52,970 nucleotides of DNA, from positions 1 to 52,970 of the forward strand of contig JADZEI010000087.1 of assembly GCA_020850615.1 (NCBI GenBank), given 5' to 3'. The position numbers were made by a program, and so were the translations under genes. The notes under the pieces were generated by a model. That model saw nothing but the letters and a program-made list of their open reading frames with translations. It was not told the origin of the DNA and ran no database searches. The DNA is from Dehalococcoidia bacterium. GTDB taxonomy: Bacteria > Chloroflexota > Dehalococcoidia > Tepidiformales > Tepidiformaceae. Shown piece by piece: positions 33,592 through 49,325 of the stretch (position 1 is the first letter of the stretch; each line of letters begins with the position of its first letter).

Positions 33592-33668
33592 GGCGGGCGT
33601 AGCGTAGCGGTTAACGCGTCTGGTTGTGGCCCAGAAGATCGAGGGTTCGAACCCCTCCGCTCGCCCCA
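33592..33668 (+). tRNA. tRNA-His (anticodon GTG)
   Basis: A full cloverleaf can be drawn. The acceptor stem is GCGGGCG (33593-33599) with CGCTCGC (33658-33664, one G-T pair). An extra 5' G (33592) pairs with discriminator C73, the hallmark of tRNA-His. The anticodon arm is TCTGG-TTGTGGC-CCAGA with GTG in the loop, and the T-arm is GAGGG-TTCGAAC-CCCTC. CCA is encoded. A -10-like TACGAT is at 33575-33580. Confidence 0.95.
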
Positions 33669-37575: not shown

Positions 37576-37611
37576 CCCCTCTCCCGGAGGGGGAGGGGCC
37601 AGGGGTGAGGG
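37576..37611 (+). repeat. REP-like palindrome, copy 1
   Basis: CCCCTCTCCC, short loop, GGGGAGGGG, then the shared tail CCAGGGGTGAGGG. It sits in the spacer between divergent mgtE and the secreted-protein gene. Same orientation as the other five copies. Confidence 0.8.
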
Positions 37612-37648
37612 TGGCCGCGCCCGGATGGCAGAACAGGTCCAGCAGGTT

Positions 37649-37684
37649 CCCCTCTCCCTCTGCGAGAGGGGCCAGGGGTGAGGG
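37649..37684 (+). repeat. REP-like palindrome, copy 2
   Basis: CCCCTCTCCCTC, loop, GAGAGGGG, tail CCAGGGGTGAGGG. It starts 73 bp after copy 1 in the same orientation, forming the only directly repeated pair. Confidence 0.8.
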
Positions 37685-37773
37685 GTGGCGCCCTGATGAC
37701 ACCCTACTGCCTCAGAGCCGGGCGGCGGGCGAGCGCAATCTGCTAATGCGCTTTTGCACTTGAGCCAGAAGGG

Positions 37774-40728: not shown

Positions 40729-40767
40729 CCCCTCTCCCGCGCACGGGAGAGGGGACGGGGGTGAGGG
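40729..40767 (+). repeat. REP-like palindrome, copy 3
   Basis: CCCCTCTCCCG-CGCA-CGGGAGAGGGG, then ACGGGGGTGAGGG. It is 17 bp after the CoA-transferase stop and may also act as its terminator. Heptad block 2 follows 78 bp later. Confidence 0.8.
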
Positions 40768-40844
40768 GGCCCGCGACCGCGCGCGCACGCTCCCCGCGGG
40801 CACGCTACTCTCTGCGACAAACCCACGGGTGCGACCATCGTCTC

Positions 40845-40879
40845 GGGCACTGGGCACTGGGCACTGGGCACTGGGCCCT
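40845..40879. repeat. Heptad tandem repeat block 2 (GGGCACT x4 plus variant)
   Basis: Four perfect GGGCACT units and a fifth GGGCCCT unit, phase 7. It is 48 bp upstream of rsmE. Confidence 0.85.
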
Positions 40880-40914
40880 TGGCATCGCCCCTTCCTCCCC
40901 CCGCCATCCCCCCG

Positions 40915-40926: not shown

Positions 40927-41646
40927 GTGGCCCACATCCCCCGGCTCTACGTCCCCGGCCGCCTCGGCCCCGGCCCGGTCACCCTCGACCGCGACCAGTC
41001 CCAGCGCCTTGCCGCCGTCATGCGCGTCCGCGAAGGCGACCCCGTGCAGCTTTTCTCCGGCGACGGCCGCGAATGGCACGCCACCGTCACCACCGTGACG
41101 AAGCAGGCGGTCCACCTCACCGTCGGCCAGCCTTCCCGCCAGGAGCCGCAGCCCGCCGTCACGCTCGAACTCTGGTGCGCAGTGGTCCGCGCCAACCGCT
41201 TCGATTGGGCCATCGAAAAGGCCGTCGAGCTCGGCGCCGGCATCATCCGCCCCATGATCTGCGACTACTCCGCCCGCGGCGACACCGCCGGCGCCGCGAA
41301 GCTCGACCGCTGGCAGCGCATCGTCATCGAAGCCGCCGAACAATCCGGCCGGCTCTGGCTGCCCGTCATCGAGCCGCCCGCAACGTTCGCCGCCGTCCTC
41401 GCCCGCCACCACGGCGCGCTCGTACTCGGCGACCCCGCCGGCATGCCGTGGCCGCACGCCGCCGCGCTCCTCCCGCCCCGCGGGACCGTCGCCCTCGCCA
41501 TCGGCCCCGAAGGCGGCTTCAGCCCCGCCGAGGGCGCCGCCGCCCGGGCCGCCGGCGCCCTCGCCGTCCAGCTCGGCCCCCACATCCTCCGCACCGAGAC
41601 CGCCGCCGCCGCCGGCCTCGCCCTCCTCCGCGCCACCCTCCTGTAA
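40927..41646 (+). CDS. rsmE: 16S rRNA (uracil-1498-N3)-methyltransferase RsmE
   Basis: SPOUT methyltransferase of 239 residues, the standard length, which methylates U1498 of 16S rRNA with S-adenosylmethionine. The N-terminal PUA-like domain has HIPRLYVPGRL. The C-terminal knot domain contains EKAVELGAGIIRPMICDYSA, EAAEQSGRLWLPVI, IGPEGGFSPAEG (about residue 193) and LGPHILRTETAAAAGL. GTG 40927 gives the usual family N-terminus. It is flanked on both sides by REP and heptad repeats. Confidence 0.93.
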   Translation: MAHIPRLYVPGRLGPGPVTLDRDQSQRLAAVMRVREGDPVQLFSGDGREWHATVTTVTKQAVHLTVGQPSRQEPQPAVTLELWCAVVRANRFDWAIEKAVELGAGIIRPMICDYSARGDTAGAAKLDRWQRIVIEAAEQSGRLWLPVIEPPATFAAVLARHHGALVLGDPAGMPWPHAAALLPPRGTVALAIGPEGGFSPAEGAAARAAGALAVQLGPHILRTETAAAAGLALLRATLL

Positions 41647-41648
41647 GG

Positions 41649-41676
41649 GTTGTCCGTTGTCCGTTGCCCGTTGTCC
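41649..41676. repeat. Heptad tandem repeat block 3a (GTTGTCC x4)
   Basis: Units GTTGTCC, GTTGTCC, GTTGCCC, GTTGTCC begin 2 bp after the rsmE stop. The reverse-complement block (GGACAAC x3) lies at 41847-41867 beyond a REP palindrome, so the two blocks form the outer arms of one composite inverted element. Confidence 0.85.
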
Positions 41677-41708
41677 GGCGGAATCATGCCGAGCGAGCCG
41701 TGCAATCC

Positions 41709-41759
41709 GCAGCTCCCTCTCCCGCCGCAGCGGGAGAGGGCGGGGGGTGAGGGAGCTGC
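41709..41759 (+). repeat. REP-like palindrome, copy 4 (nested in composite element)
   Basis: Outer perfect 11-bp arms GCAGCTCCCTC (41709-41719) and GAGGGAGCTGC (41749-41759) enclose CCCTCTCCCG-CCGCAG-CGGGAGAGGG (41715-41740) and the GGGGGGTGAGGG tail. Imperfect GAGCGAGCC/GGCTCGTT pairing extends the symmetry outward. Confidence 0.8.
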
Positions 41760-41846
41760 GTGGCTCGTTGCCATAGCGTCTCCCCGGCAGGTTCGCGACC
41801 TCCGCCTTCTGGTACGCTGAGACCCGCACGCGCCAGCATCCGATTC

Positions 41847-41867
41847 GGACAACGGACAACGGACGAC
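41847..41867. repeat. Heptad tandem repeat block 3b (GGACAAC x3)
   Basis: GGACAAC, GGACAAC, GGACGAC: the reverse complement of block 3a. It ends 35 bp before the DUF2283 gene. Confidence 0.85.
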
Positions 41868-41902
41868 GGGTTCCCGTCGCAGTACGGCAGGTGGGAATAG
41901 GC

Positions 41903-42124
41903 ATGCGCATCGAATACGACCCCGAGCTCGACATCCTCTACATCCGCCTCGACGCGGGTCAGGAGCATGCTCGCAACGAGACCTTCGATGTGGCCCCATT
42001 CTTCGTCGCGTTCGATGTCGACGCGGAGGACCGCATCGCCGCCATCGAGATCCTCGACGCTTCGAAGCGGGTAAACCTGGCCCAGCTCCTGCCGCTCGTC
42101 CACCCCGCTGCCGCCTCCGCCTGA
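41903..42124 (+). CDS. DUF2283 family protein
   Basis: Small protein of 73 residues matching the DUF2283 pattern (MRIEYDPELDILYIRLD, then FDVDAEDRIAAIEILDAS). Family members are often encoded beside toxin-antitoxin or hypothetical genes; their function is unknown. The ATG has GGGAATAGG upstream. It lies in the repeat-rich stretch between rsmE and a membrane protein. Confidence 0.8.
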   Translation: MRIEYDPELDILYIRLDAGQEHARNETFDVAPFFVAFDVDAEDRIAAIEILDASKRVNLAQLLPLVHPAAASA

Positions 42125-42137
42125 GCCTGCCCGCCCG

Positions 42138-42172
42138 ATCGACAATCGCCCGGCGGCAATCGACAATCACTC
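42138..42172. repeat. Heptad tandem repeat block 4 (ATCGACA type, degenerate)
   Basis: Five 7-bp steps: ATCGACA, ATCGCCC, GGCGGCA, ATCGACA, ATCACTC. It fills most of the 49-bp gap between two genes and ends just before the ATG at 42174. Confidence 0.55.
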
Positions 42173-42173
42173 C

Positions 42174-42563
42174 ATGGCTGCCATCCGCGGACTCACCCTC
42201 GCCTTCGGCCTCTTCGCCGGCTCGTTTGCTCTCCACATCGTCGGCGGCGCGACAGACCAGGGCTGGCTCTTCGCCATCGCCGTCGCCATCATCTTCGTCT
42301 CCGCGACCGGCTTCCCCGCGCTCGCCGTGTTCTTCGCCGGGCCCCGGCTTTCGCCCGCGGCCACCCGCCCCGTCCTCGCCATAGGCGCGCTCGCCGGGCT
42401 CGTCTTCACCGCCGGCGCCCTCTGGGCCGCGAACGAGCGCGCCTTCGCCGCCTGGCACATCGTCGCCGTCCCCGCCCTCGTCACAGGCGTCTCCCTCACC
42501 CTCCTCGCCGCCCGCGAGCTCCTCCGTCGCACCACCCCCCGCAAAGGCCCCGCCCCCGCCTGA
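42174..42563 (+). CDS. Small membrane protein of unknown function
   Basis: Protein of 129 residues with four predicted membrane helices: LTLAFGLFAGSFALHIVGG, LFAIAVAIIFVSATGFPALA, PVLAIGALAGLVFTAGALWA and IVAVPALVTGVSLTLLAARE. The basic C-terminus is likely cytoplasmic. I recognise no family. The start has no ribosome binding site because a heptad repeat abuts it, so expression may depend on the upstream gene. The high-GC3 codon pattern supports it being real. Confidence 0.6.
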   Translation: MAAIRGLTLAFGLFAGSFALHIVGGATDQGWLFAIAVAIIFVSATGFPALAVFFAGPRLSPAATRPVLAIGALAGLVFTAGALWAANERAFAAWHIVAVPALVTGVSLTLLAARELLRRTTPRKGPAPA

Positions 42564-43801: not shown

Positions 43802-43840
43802 CCCCTCTCCCCCGCAGGGGAGAGGGGCCGGGGGTGAGGG
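43802..43840 (+). repeat. REP-like palindrome, copy 5
   Basis: CCCCTCTCCCC-CGC-AGGGGAGAGGGG, then CCGGGGGTGAGGG. It lies 18 bp after the LLM stop codon, between convergent genes; heptad block 6 follows 44 bp later. Confidence 0.8.
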
Positions 43841-43884
43841 CGCGTCCGTCCCTACCGCCGCGTGGTCGCCCCGCGCAGCCCGCA

Positions 43885-43912
43885 CCAACAGCTAACAGCC
43901 AACAGCCAACAG
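43885..43912. repeat. Heptad tandem repeat block 6 (CCAACAG x4)
   Basis: CCAACAG, CTAACAG, CCAACAG, CCAACAG, nearly the same as block 1 at 25537. It lies between the convergent LLM and MFS genes. Confidence 0.85.
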
Positions 43913-43924
43913 CCGCGCCCGCCC

Positions 43925-46743: not shown

Positions 46744-49325
46744 TGTCCGCCGCCGACAACGCCCGCCTCAAGCGCGTCTTCCAGCTCGAGCTCGAACGCG
46801 GCTGCACCAACCAGGCCGTCATCGGCGGCCTCGACCGCATGTTCATCCAGATGGACGAAGACGGCCTCCTCGAAATCGGCGGCGCCCTCCGCCGCATGGT
46901 CGCCGAGCTCCCGCCCGGCGGCTACCGCAACCTCGACGAACCCGCCCGCAAGCGCTGGCTCGAACGCACCATCCGCGCCCTCGACGGCATCCCCACCATC
47001 CCCTCCCCCGCCCCACCCACGAACGTCCGCACCCTCGCCCCCAACGTCACCCCCCTCCCCCAGCGCCGGACCTCAGCCCAAGCCAAGGCCAGTACCATCT
47101 CTCCCGCCCAACAGAAGACGAGCCGCCGAACGGCCCCCCCTCTCCCGCCGCAGCGGGAGAGGGGGCAGGGGGGTGAGGGCCACCCATCGGGCCAACAGCC
47201 AACAGCCAACAGCCAACAGCTCTCCCTCACCTCCCCCCTCACCAAACTCCCCGGCATCGGCCCCGCCGCCGTCCCGAAGTTCGAAAAGCTCGGCGTCACC
47301 AACGCCGGCGAGGCCGCGGTCTTCTACCCCCGCCGCTATAACGACTTCACCGACCTCCGGCCCATCGCCCAGCTCCAGCCCTCCACCACACCGCAGACCG
47401 TCATCGCGACCGTCTTCTCGGTCCGCGAGATGCGCTTCGGCAAGCGCGTGCGCGGCGCGGAGGCGATGCTCCAGGACCGCACCGGCTCGCTCAAGGTCGC
47501 CTGGTTCAACATGCCCTACGTCGCCCGGCAGCTCGAAGAGGGCCAGCAGGTCGTCGTCTCCGGCAAGGTCCGCGCCTTCCGCGGCCGCCTCCAGATGGAG
47601 AACCCCGAGTTCGAGCCCGCCGATGCCGAGCTGATGCACACCGGCCGCCTGGTGCCCGTCTACCCTGCCACCGCCGGCCTCGCCCAGCGCACCATCCGCC
47701 GCGCCGTCAAGGCCGCGGTCGATGCGCTCGCCCCGCAAGTGCCCGATGCCGCGCCCGCCTGGCTCCGCTCCGAAGCCCGCGTGGCCCCGCTGGGCAACGC
47801 CGTCCGCGAGCTCCACTACCCCGAGTCCTTCGGCCATGCCGAGCGCGCCCGCCAGGCCATCGCCCTCCGCGAGTTCCTCGCCATCCAGGTCGCCGTCCTC
47901 ATGCGGCGCGCCGAATGGCAGCAGGGCCGCGATGCCCCACGCCTCGACTTCGACCGCCTCCGCGAGCCCTTCCTCGCATCGCTCCCGTGGCAGCTCACCG
48001 GCGCCCAGGCGCGCGCCCTCGACGACATAACTCGCGACATCCGCGGCCCCCACCCGATGCTCCGCCTCCTCCAGGGCGATGTCGGCTCGGGCAAGACCGT
48101 CGTCGCCTTCGCCGCCATGCTCGCCGCCGTCGCCTCCGGCTACCAGGCCGTGCTCATGGCCCCCACCGAGATCCTCGCCGACCAGCACTACCGCTCGCTC
48201 TCGAAGATGCTCGGCGGCAGCGCCCTGACCGCCCTCGACGGCGTCTTCGCGCCCGAGTGGCTCCGCCGCCCGCTCCGCGCGCTCCTCCTGACCGGCTCGC
48301 TCACCCCGCAGCAGAAGGAGCAGATCCGCAGTGACGCCGCCCACGGTGGCGCCGACATCGTCATCGGCACGCACGCCCTGCTCGAAGACGACGTCCAGAT
48401 CCCGCGCCTCGGCCTCGCCGTCGTCGACGAGCAGCACCGCTTCGGCGTCCTGCAGCGCGCGAAGCTCCGCCAGAAGGGCGACAACCCTCACCTCCTCGTC
48501 ATGACCGCGACGCCGATCCCCCGGACGCTCGCCCTCACCGTCTACGGCGACCTCGAGGTCTCGTCGATCACCGAGATGCCGCCCGGCCGCAAGCCGATCA
48601 AGACCGAGTGGGTCCAGCCCCTCGACCGCGAGACCGCCTACCGCAACGTCCGCCGCCGCCTGGACGACGGCGAGCAGGTCTACGTCATCTGCCCCCTGGT
48701 CGAAGAGTCCGAAGCCCTCGACGTCCGCTCCGCCGAGGAGGAGTTCGAGCGCCTCCGCACCGGCCCGCTCAAGGACTACCGCCTCGAGCTCCTCCACGGC
48801 CGCATGCCCGGCCGCCAGAAGGACGAGGTCATGGAGCGCTTCGCAAGCAAGGAAGCCCAGGTCCTCGTCTCCACCAGCGTCATCGAGGTCGGCATCGACG
48901 TCCCGAACGCGACTGTCATCATCATCGAAGGCGCGGAGCGCTTCGGCCTGAGCCAGCTCCACCAGTTCCGCGGACGCGTCGGCCGCTCCGAGAAGCAGAG
49001 CTACTGCTTCCTCTTCAGCACCGGCGAGGATCCCGGCCCCGACGCCCACGAGCGCCTCCAGGCCATGGTCGAAACCACCGACGGGTTCAAGCTCGCCGAG
49101 GTCGACCTGGAGATGCGCGGCGAAGGCGAAGCCTGGGGCCGCGTCCAGAGCGGCGCCAACGCCATGCTCCGCGTCGCCCGCATCTCCGACCGCGACATCC
49201 TCCTCCGCGCGCGCGACCTCGCCGCGCAGGTCCTCGCCCGCGACCCGCAGCTCCAGAAGCCCGAGCACCACCAGCTCGCCGCCATCGTCAAACCCTTCCT
49301 CGCCCGCGCCACGGAGGCCAACTGA
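46743..49325 (+). CDS. recG: ATP-dependent DNA helicase RecG with N-terminal extension and repeat-derived linker
   Basis: Branch-migrating helicase of 860 residues, against about 690-700 in E. coli. Residues 1-100 form an extra helical domain (NARLKRVFQLELERGCTNQA). A low-complexity linker follows, of which residues 132-159 are encoded by a REP palindrome plus four heptads. The wedge domain begins at LTKLPGIGPAAVPKFEKLGV. Helicase motifs are LLQGDVGSGKT (I), DEQHRFG (II), MTATPIPRT (III) and QFRGRVGR (VI). RecG rescues stalled forks and processes recombination intermediates. It is coupled to the DegV gene upstream and to radA downstream. Confidence 0.95.
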   Translation: MSAADNARLKRVFQLELERGCTNQAVIGGLDRMFIQMDEDGLLEIGGALRRMVAELPPGGYRNLDEPARKRWLERTIRALDGIPTIPSPAPPTNVRTLAPNVTPLPQRRTSAQAKASTISPAQQKTSRRTAPPLPPQRERGQGGEGHPSGQQPTANSQQLSLTSPLTKLPGIGPAAVPKFEKLGVTNAGEAAVFYPRRYNDFTDLRPIAQLQPSTTPQTVIATVFSVREMRFGKRVRGAEAMLQDRTGSLKVAWFNMPYVARQLEEGQQVVVSGKVRAFRGRLQMENPEFEPADAELMHTGRLVPVYPATAGLAQRTIRRAVKAAVDALAPQVPDAAPAWLRSEARVAPLGNAVRELHYPESFGHAERARQAIALREFLAIQVAVLMRRAEWQQGRDAPRLDFDRLREPFLASLPWQLTGAQARALDDITRDIRGPHPMLRLLQGDVGSGKTVVAFAAMLAAVASGYQAVLMAPTEILADQHYRSLSKMLGGSALTALDGVFAPEWLRRPLRALLLTGSLTPQQKEQIRSDAAHGGADIVIGTHALLEDDVQIPRLGLAVVDEQHRFGVLQRAKLRQKGDNPHLLVMTATPIPRTLALTVYGDLEVSSITEMPPGRKPIKTEWVQPLDRETAYRNVRRRLDDGEQVYVICPLVEESEALDVRSAEEEFERLRTGPLKDYRLELLHGRMPGRQKDEVMERFASKEAQVLVSTSVIEVGIDVPNATVIIIEGAERFGLSQLHQFRGRVGRSEKQSYCFLFSTGEDPGPDAHERLQAMVETTDGFKLAEVDLEMRGEGEAWGRVQSGANAMLRVARISDRDILLRARDLAAQVLARDPQLQKPEHHQLAAIVKPFLARATEAN
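47137..47179 (+). repeat. REP-like palindrome, copy 6, inside recG
   Basis: CCCCTCTCCCG-CCGCAG-CGGGAGAGGGGG, then CAGGGGGGTGAGGG. The palindrome core is the same as in copy 4, including the CCGCAG loop. It is translated as PPLPPQRERGQGGEG within the RecG linker. Confidence 0.85.
47192..47219. repeat. Heptad tandem repeat block 7 (CCAACAG x4), inside recG
   Basis: Four perfect CCAACAG units, 13 bp after REP copy 6, translated as QQPTANSQQ. It has the same unit as the intergenic blocks 1 and 6. Confidence 0.9.

Follow-up and report, generated by a model that had tools for sequence, protein, structure and literature searches.

The window analysed here, a stretch of DNA of 52,970 nucleotides, contains a spacer between rsmE (identified by Pfam PF04452/PF20260) and a DUF2283 gene that is occupied by inverted heptamer arrays around a REP-like hairpin. 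The features of this locus are:

41647-41902, no strand assigned: full spacer separating rsmE from the DUF2283 gene, 256 bp (rsmE ends at 41646, the DUF2283 gene starts at 41903)
41649-41676, plus strand: left heptamer array, GTTGTCC GTTGTCC GTTGCCC GTTGTCC, with one substituted unit (GTTGCCC)
41694-41767, no strand assigned: weak arms that extend the hairpin outward, CGAGCCGTGCA / TGCGTGGCTCG, 82% complementary
41709-41759, plus strand: REP-like hairpin with a long stem; the best fold pairs 41709-41728 with 41740-41759
41709-41719 and 41749-41759: 11-bp arms GCAGCTCCCTC / GAGGGAGCTGC
41715-41725 and 41730-41740: alternative inner REP stem CCCTCTCCCGC / GCGGGAGAGGG
41847-41867, minus strand: right heptamer array, GGACAAC GGACAAC GGACGAC, with one substituted unit (GGACGAC)
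41903-42124, plus strand: DUF2283 gene (Pfam PF10049, E 1.7e-11), apparently lineage-specific
42174-42563, plus strand: small gene 3' of the DUF2283 gene, located directly after rsmE in 16 of 29 relatives

The product of the small gene had no Pfam match and is, by the look of its sequence, a putative membrane protein. The left array begins 2 bp past the rsmE stop codon and the right array ends 35 bp upstream of the DUF2283 start. The composite occupies 219 of the 256 bp, in agreement with the preliminary description, which had it filling almost the whole spacer between outer inverted arms of four GTTGTCC and three GGACAAC units; these arms are present, with one substitution on each side. They give an inverted match of 24 nt at 92% (41654-41677 / 41846-41869), which corresponds to the terminal inverted repeats expected of a miniature inverted-repeat transposable element (MITE), and a 15-nt register of the arms is perfect (41649-41663 / 41846-41860). 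Folding had been proposed for both strands; for the given strand, the spacer was more stable than its shuffled versions both as DNA (z -6.1) and as RNA (z -5.2), with 0 of 200 shuffles as stable in either case. Rfam detected nothing in the spacer, its sole match across the window being a tRNA at 33593-33665.

The central hairpin, 45 bp long as a stem with a GGGGTGAGGG tail, has a dispersed core of approximately CTCCCTCTCCCGCCGCAGCGGGAGAGGG-GGGGGTGAGGG. It is present in high copy in this genome (91 pattern matches, 47 + 44) and was matched at least once in each of 15 of the 36 other genomes searched. We conclude that it is an ordinary dispersed palindrome. The preliminary description had seen nested layers in the interior. 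The 11-bp arms, the REP stem and the imperfect arms were all located, but the imperfect arms (GAGCGAGCC / GGCTCGTT) are weak, with 11 nt at 82% (41694-41704 / 41757-41767), and the nesting is not clean: the 11-bp arms and the REP stem both use CCCTC (41715-41719), exclude each other and are therefore alternatives. Like the GTAG- and CGTC-tagged REP elements (PMC3733652), the hairpin is a short, high-copy intergenic palindrome. Unlike them, it carries no GTAG or CGTC terminal tag within 41709-41759 by inspection, and no linked RAYT was found: the genome holds seven Y1_Tnp loci, none of which has the hairpin motif within flanks of up to 1.5 kb. Further REP-like hairpins lie in the window at 37577-37687, 40730-40883, 43803-43916 and 47138-47222, each with a nearby period-7 array whose unit is a different heptamer (AGGGGTG, GGGCACT, AACAGCC). 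BIME-like groups, with hairpins in alternating orientation at short spacing, were seen at C11:73599-73869, C66:49545-49613 and C74:97994-98189.

A 241-bp query covering the composite was compared with the 4.17-Mb genome. It gave 102 matches, of which the only full-length one was the query itself; no second full-length copy exists in this genome. Nearly all of the 101 partial matches fall on the hairpin part (query positions 71-114) or on the array part. The proposal that the composite was assembled from two repeat families was borne out by these separate matches, and we conclude that the spacer is a stack of two families, each a dispersed repeat of this bacterium. The closest partial composite, C70:1181-1278, has the left array and the hairpin without the right array.

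A sample of 452,970 bp (the window plus 20 stretches of 20 kb) contained 17 intergenic and 2 coding arrays of period 7, no intergenic arrays of periods 4-6 or 8-13, and five intergenic arrays of period 14, a multiple of 7. The heptamers seen include GTTGTCC, GTTGGCT, GTTCACG, ATTGTCG and others. Exact GTTGTCCGTTGTCC has 69 occurrences in this genome and its reversed control has none; it was found in 0 of 36 relatives of the same family and once in one of 24 class-level relatives. A total of six intergenic heptamer arrays were detected in samples of 20 kb from 20 relatives of the family, where genes were called with a caller trained on the present genome that failed on at least one relative (L148, coding 0.01).

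The arrays have a marked orientation relative to genes. We mapped 56 GTTGTCC arrays (the exact matches listed and some mismatched ones, a subset of 201 matches with at most two mismatches), of which 51 lie outside called ORFs with gene edges on both sides, according to a gene finder trained on this genome. The nearer gene edge was behind GTTGTCC in 46 of these 51 (binomial p 2e-9), and the arrays therefore point out of genes into spacers. By hand count, 30 arrays sit at three-prime and 25 at five-prime gene ends. Among the 56 arrays, neighbours within 1 kb formed 13 convergent pairs, no divergent pair and one pair in the same direction, when about 0.74 same-spacer pairs would be expected for independent arrays on an estimated 1,925 spacers. 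The other heptamers showed the same lean in 14 of 18 arrays, in a test that was not blind, most arrays having been inspected beforehand, in which strand was set only by likeness to GTTGTCC and 9 of the 27 listed intergenic arrays were unused (GTTGTCC itself, strand ties, contig ends). Facing pairs of heptamers other than GTTGTCC occur at spacer edges (GTCGGCT in L130, GGCTGTT in L126); among 209 spacers of at least 60 bp, six scored at least 12, compared with 0.5 in a cross-spacer control. The new observation here is that several heptamers, among them GTTGTCC with no G-tract, follow the geometry known from Xanthomonas.

A shared terminal motif at the inner end of the arrays was sought and rejected: only a mild excess of GAA was seen there (12 of 47, hand count). 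In the window, short GACAATC / GGCAATC units at 42140-42173, immediately 5' of the 42174-42563 gene, also have outward polarity. At G000:C46:1745-2024 (L091), a paired spacer contains a tandem duplication whose unit, some 74 bp long, takes in part of the right array. Two of the 13 convergent pairs enclose genes, namely C21:169614-170505 (L045 1501-2392), with two small genes that we take to be antitoxin-like and four-helix-bundle-like, and C55:12438-13160 (L093 6939-7661), with one gene, presumably RidA-like. Both look like gene cassettes between arrays.

On balance, we lean towards a composite that arose in place out of two unrelated families of dispersed repeats, in which the arrays are a polar class and the hairpin is independent. 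Each array begins at a distance of a few bases up to some tens of bases from the edge of a gene, at 5' and 3' ends alike, and extends from there 5' to 3' into the spacer. Since arrays run outward from each gene, two in one spacer face each other and give an inverted repeat. Gains and losses of array length most likely occur in 7-nt steps, through slippage or the copying of units. The REP-like palindrome, found in other contexts as well, would occupy the spacer independently and may itself have been mobile. In single-stranded DNA or in read-through RNA, the computed fold predicts that the two arms can pair with each other and so close off the spacer, leaving the hairpin in the loop. The segment with the composite and the DUF2283 gene may have been gained in this lineage downstream of rsmE, ahead of the following gene, as the comparison with distant relatives suggests. 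Two observations count against assembly from independent parts. The inverted match seems to extend a few bases inward past the arrays (GAATC..ATGC on both arms), a pattern closer to that of an inverted duplication or of terminal repeats than to that of two separate arrays. In addition, an array was present in 4 of 9 hairpin spacers against 16 of 200 other spacers in the sample (Fisher p 0.006); the two families may therefore not be fully independent, although three of the four spacers lie in the window.

The polarity rule is the same statement when read from mRNA: GGACAAC would stand in 5' leaders and GUUGUCC in 3' trailers. The arrays could be elements selected at the RNA level, serving as protein sites or forming long hairpins for the termination, processing or protection of transcripts. 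The RNA fold of the spacer, far better than that of shuffles, and the way arrays hug gene edges are in line with this, as are the TAACTGA repeats of Beggiatoaceae, which lie just before start codons (PMC4679880). One RNA function does not, however, explain both the three-prime and the five-prime arrays, the loops between facing arrays range from 49 to 660 nt, and Rehm and co-workers were unable to assign the Xanthomonas arrays a role in gene regulation (PMC4692102). We regard an RNA-level element as rather unlikely.

The locus was also compared between relatives. Of 29 relatives, 16 have an ortholog of the 42174-42563 gene directly after rsmE, at a distance of 4-58 bp (239 bp in one case), as against 527 bp here, across the composite and the DUF2283 gene. 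DUF2283 was found at the rsmE locus in none of the 29 relatives. In the other 13, no ortholog of the 42174-42563 gene scored downstream of rsmE; in three of these (L068, L070, L072) the neighbour abuts the end of rsmE. The adjacency in 16 relatives, all from outside the genus, suggests that the segment including the composite and the DUF2283 gene is probably lineage-specific. The preliminary description had asked for empty sites and had tied its single element to further copies and to a gap in relatives. The segment is indeed missing in relatives, but the gap also takes in the DUF2283 gene, and the genome yielded no other copy.

Arrays could also be junction scars, copied onto 3' ends during insertion or rejoining of DNA, which would mark boundaries between old genes and new DNA and point inward. 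The polarity is that of 3'-end extension, and three of three paired spacers examined sit at junctions that are non-conserved in relatives: rsmE/DUF2283, nuoB (conserved at 0 of 29 loci in relatives) and corA (at 0 of 20). A breakpoint control against one relative (G017) was non-significant, with the junction conserved for 0 of 26 array spacers versus 7 of 66 array-free spacers of at least 60 bp (p 0.18), because synteny is low overall; non-conserved junctions are therefore no proof of scars. Evidence against scars also comes from a one-sided array between the 42174-42563 gene and a luciferase-like gene, which are adjacent in L064 and L066, and from Xanthomonas, where repeat regions were more stable than control regions (PMC4692102). 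We consider junction scars unlikely.

The preliminary description had read the composite as one miniature element of about 220 bp. In its mobile form, the heptamer arrays would be terminal inverted repeats around a REP core, and the whole would be mobilized by a transposase acting in trans. The inverted ends, the absence of the segment between rsmE and the next gene in relatives and the seven Y1_Tnp matches in the genome would fit such an element. Target duplications had been suggested as a check, and none was found across the 13 paired spacers, whose shared flank words (3.69 nt) were at the level of mismatched flanks (3.63 nt). The interiors of the 13 pairs, 49-660 bp long, are unrelated by inspection, and only the rsmE-DUF2283 pair contains the hairpin. 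Together with the single full-length copy, the hairpin-free Y1_Tnp loci and the inclusion of the DUF2283 gene in the missing segment, these results make a trans-mobilized element very unlikely. A single MITE was rejected, with no further copies, no target duplication and no common interior. The composite is real and non-random, but it is not a mobile unit.

Convergent heptamer pairs are a known kind, and by architecture, not by sequence, the present pair is a member of the Xanthomonas kind. According to Rehm et al. 2015 (PMC4692102), GGGAATC arrays form 70 convergent pairs in Xcc and 75 in Xac, at a distance of 28 nt from the 5' ORF versus 160 nt from the downstream ORF; their role is concluded there to be unknown. 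The arrays of both systems share a 7-nt unit, an intergenic location, convergent pairs and a position nearer the 5'-side gene (PMC4692102). Here, in contrast, the sequence is another one without G-tracts, several heptamers occur per genome and one pair encloses a REP-like hairpin. G-quadruplex elements, as proposed for the GGGAATC arrays, share this architecture but have next to no probability here, as GTTGTCC lacks GGG or CCC and several other heptamers of this genome do likewise; G-quadruplexes therefore cannot be the general reason for the geometry. No Xanthomonas-type GGGAATC arrays were matched in 274 genomes of one class.

Cyanobacterial heptanucleotide repeats are named STRR, and the present arrays are like them in that several heptamer families are dispersed in one genome. 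Three tandemly repeated heptanucleotides are mentioned for Calothrix (cited in PMC4692102). In MacGregor 2015 (PMC4679880), TAACTGA direct repeats are described in Beggiatoaceae, cyanobacteria and Bacteroidetes; they are alike as heptamer arrays close to start codons, in reverse orientation after some stop codons, but differ in sequence, and for the Maribeggiatoa genome one inverted pair is reported. In Nostoc, the P6b stem of the trnL intron likewise has heptamers on both stem arms and length steps of 7 nt (PMC4476775), but these lie within an intron RNA of known fold and not at gene edges. A search of open-access literature, in which GTTGTCC was not itself a query and which left subscription papers mostly outside, found no paper that deals with GTTGTCC arrays or with a combination of heptamer arrays and REPs.

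Heptamer arrays are over-represented in bacterial spacers without an accepted explanation. Now that the Xanthomonas geometry is seen in a distant bacterium, with a repeat unable to form quadruplexes, the main structural idea falls away. What stays is a simple rule for any mechanism, always convergent and outward from genes, which counts in complete genomes can test. Elsewhere, (GTTGTCC)x3 was found at 80 or more loci, in cyanobacteria, Bacteroidota, Acidobacteria, Planctomycetes, Verrucomicrobia, Desulfobacterales, Chloroflexi and proteobacteria. Neighbouring pairs among the 80 loci listed were convergent in seven cases, three of them from one Terrimonas genome, divergent in none and in the same direction in nine. 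The gene-edge polarity was weaker across phyla (36 of 49 among the matches listed, with crude gene calls); of 107 arrays, 58 had been excluded, being located within a called ORF or having no neighbour on one side. One minus-then-plus pair was seen in Terrimonas, 690 bp apart (G061:C2:238101 / 238791), among the matches listed from 18 genomes; it may enclose a gene. A single DNA-level polarity rule across bacteria for any heptamer, from genes towards spacers, with a conserved polar process that deposits or reads the arrays, seems to us quite unlikely. Such a process could be 3'-end copying at spacer breaks, or the reading of a Chi-like signal, which end-resecting enzymes would meet as they move from the spacer towards the genes.

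Terrimonas ginsenosidimutans (L211, L172, L227; Bacteroidota) carries 214 exact GTTGTCCGTTGTCC matches with facing pairs, and would be a better model for strain comparison; the one other genome of the genus searched for empty sites contained no arrays. One array of T. ginsenosidimutans (L211) has 17 units. Viral contigs contained 14 stretches made up of three GTTGTCC units.
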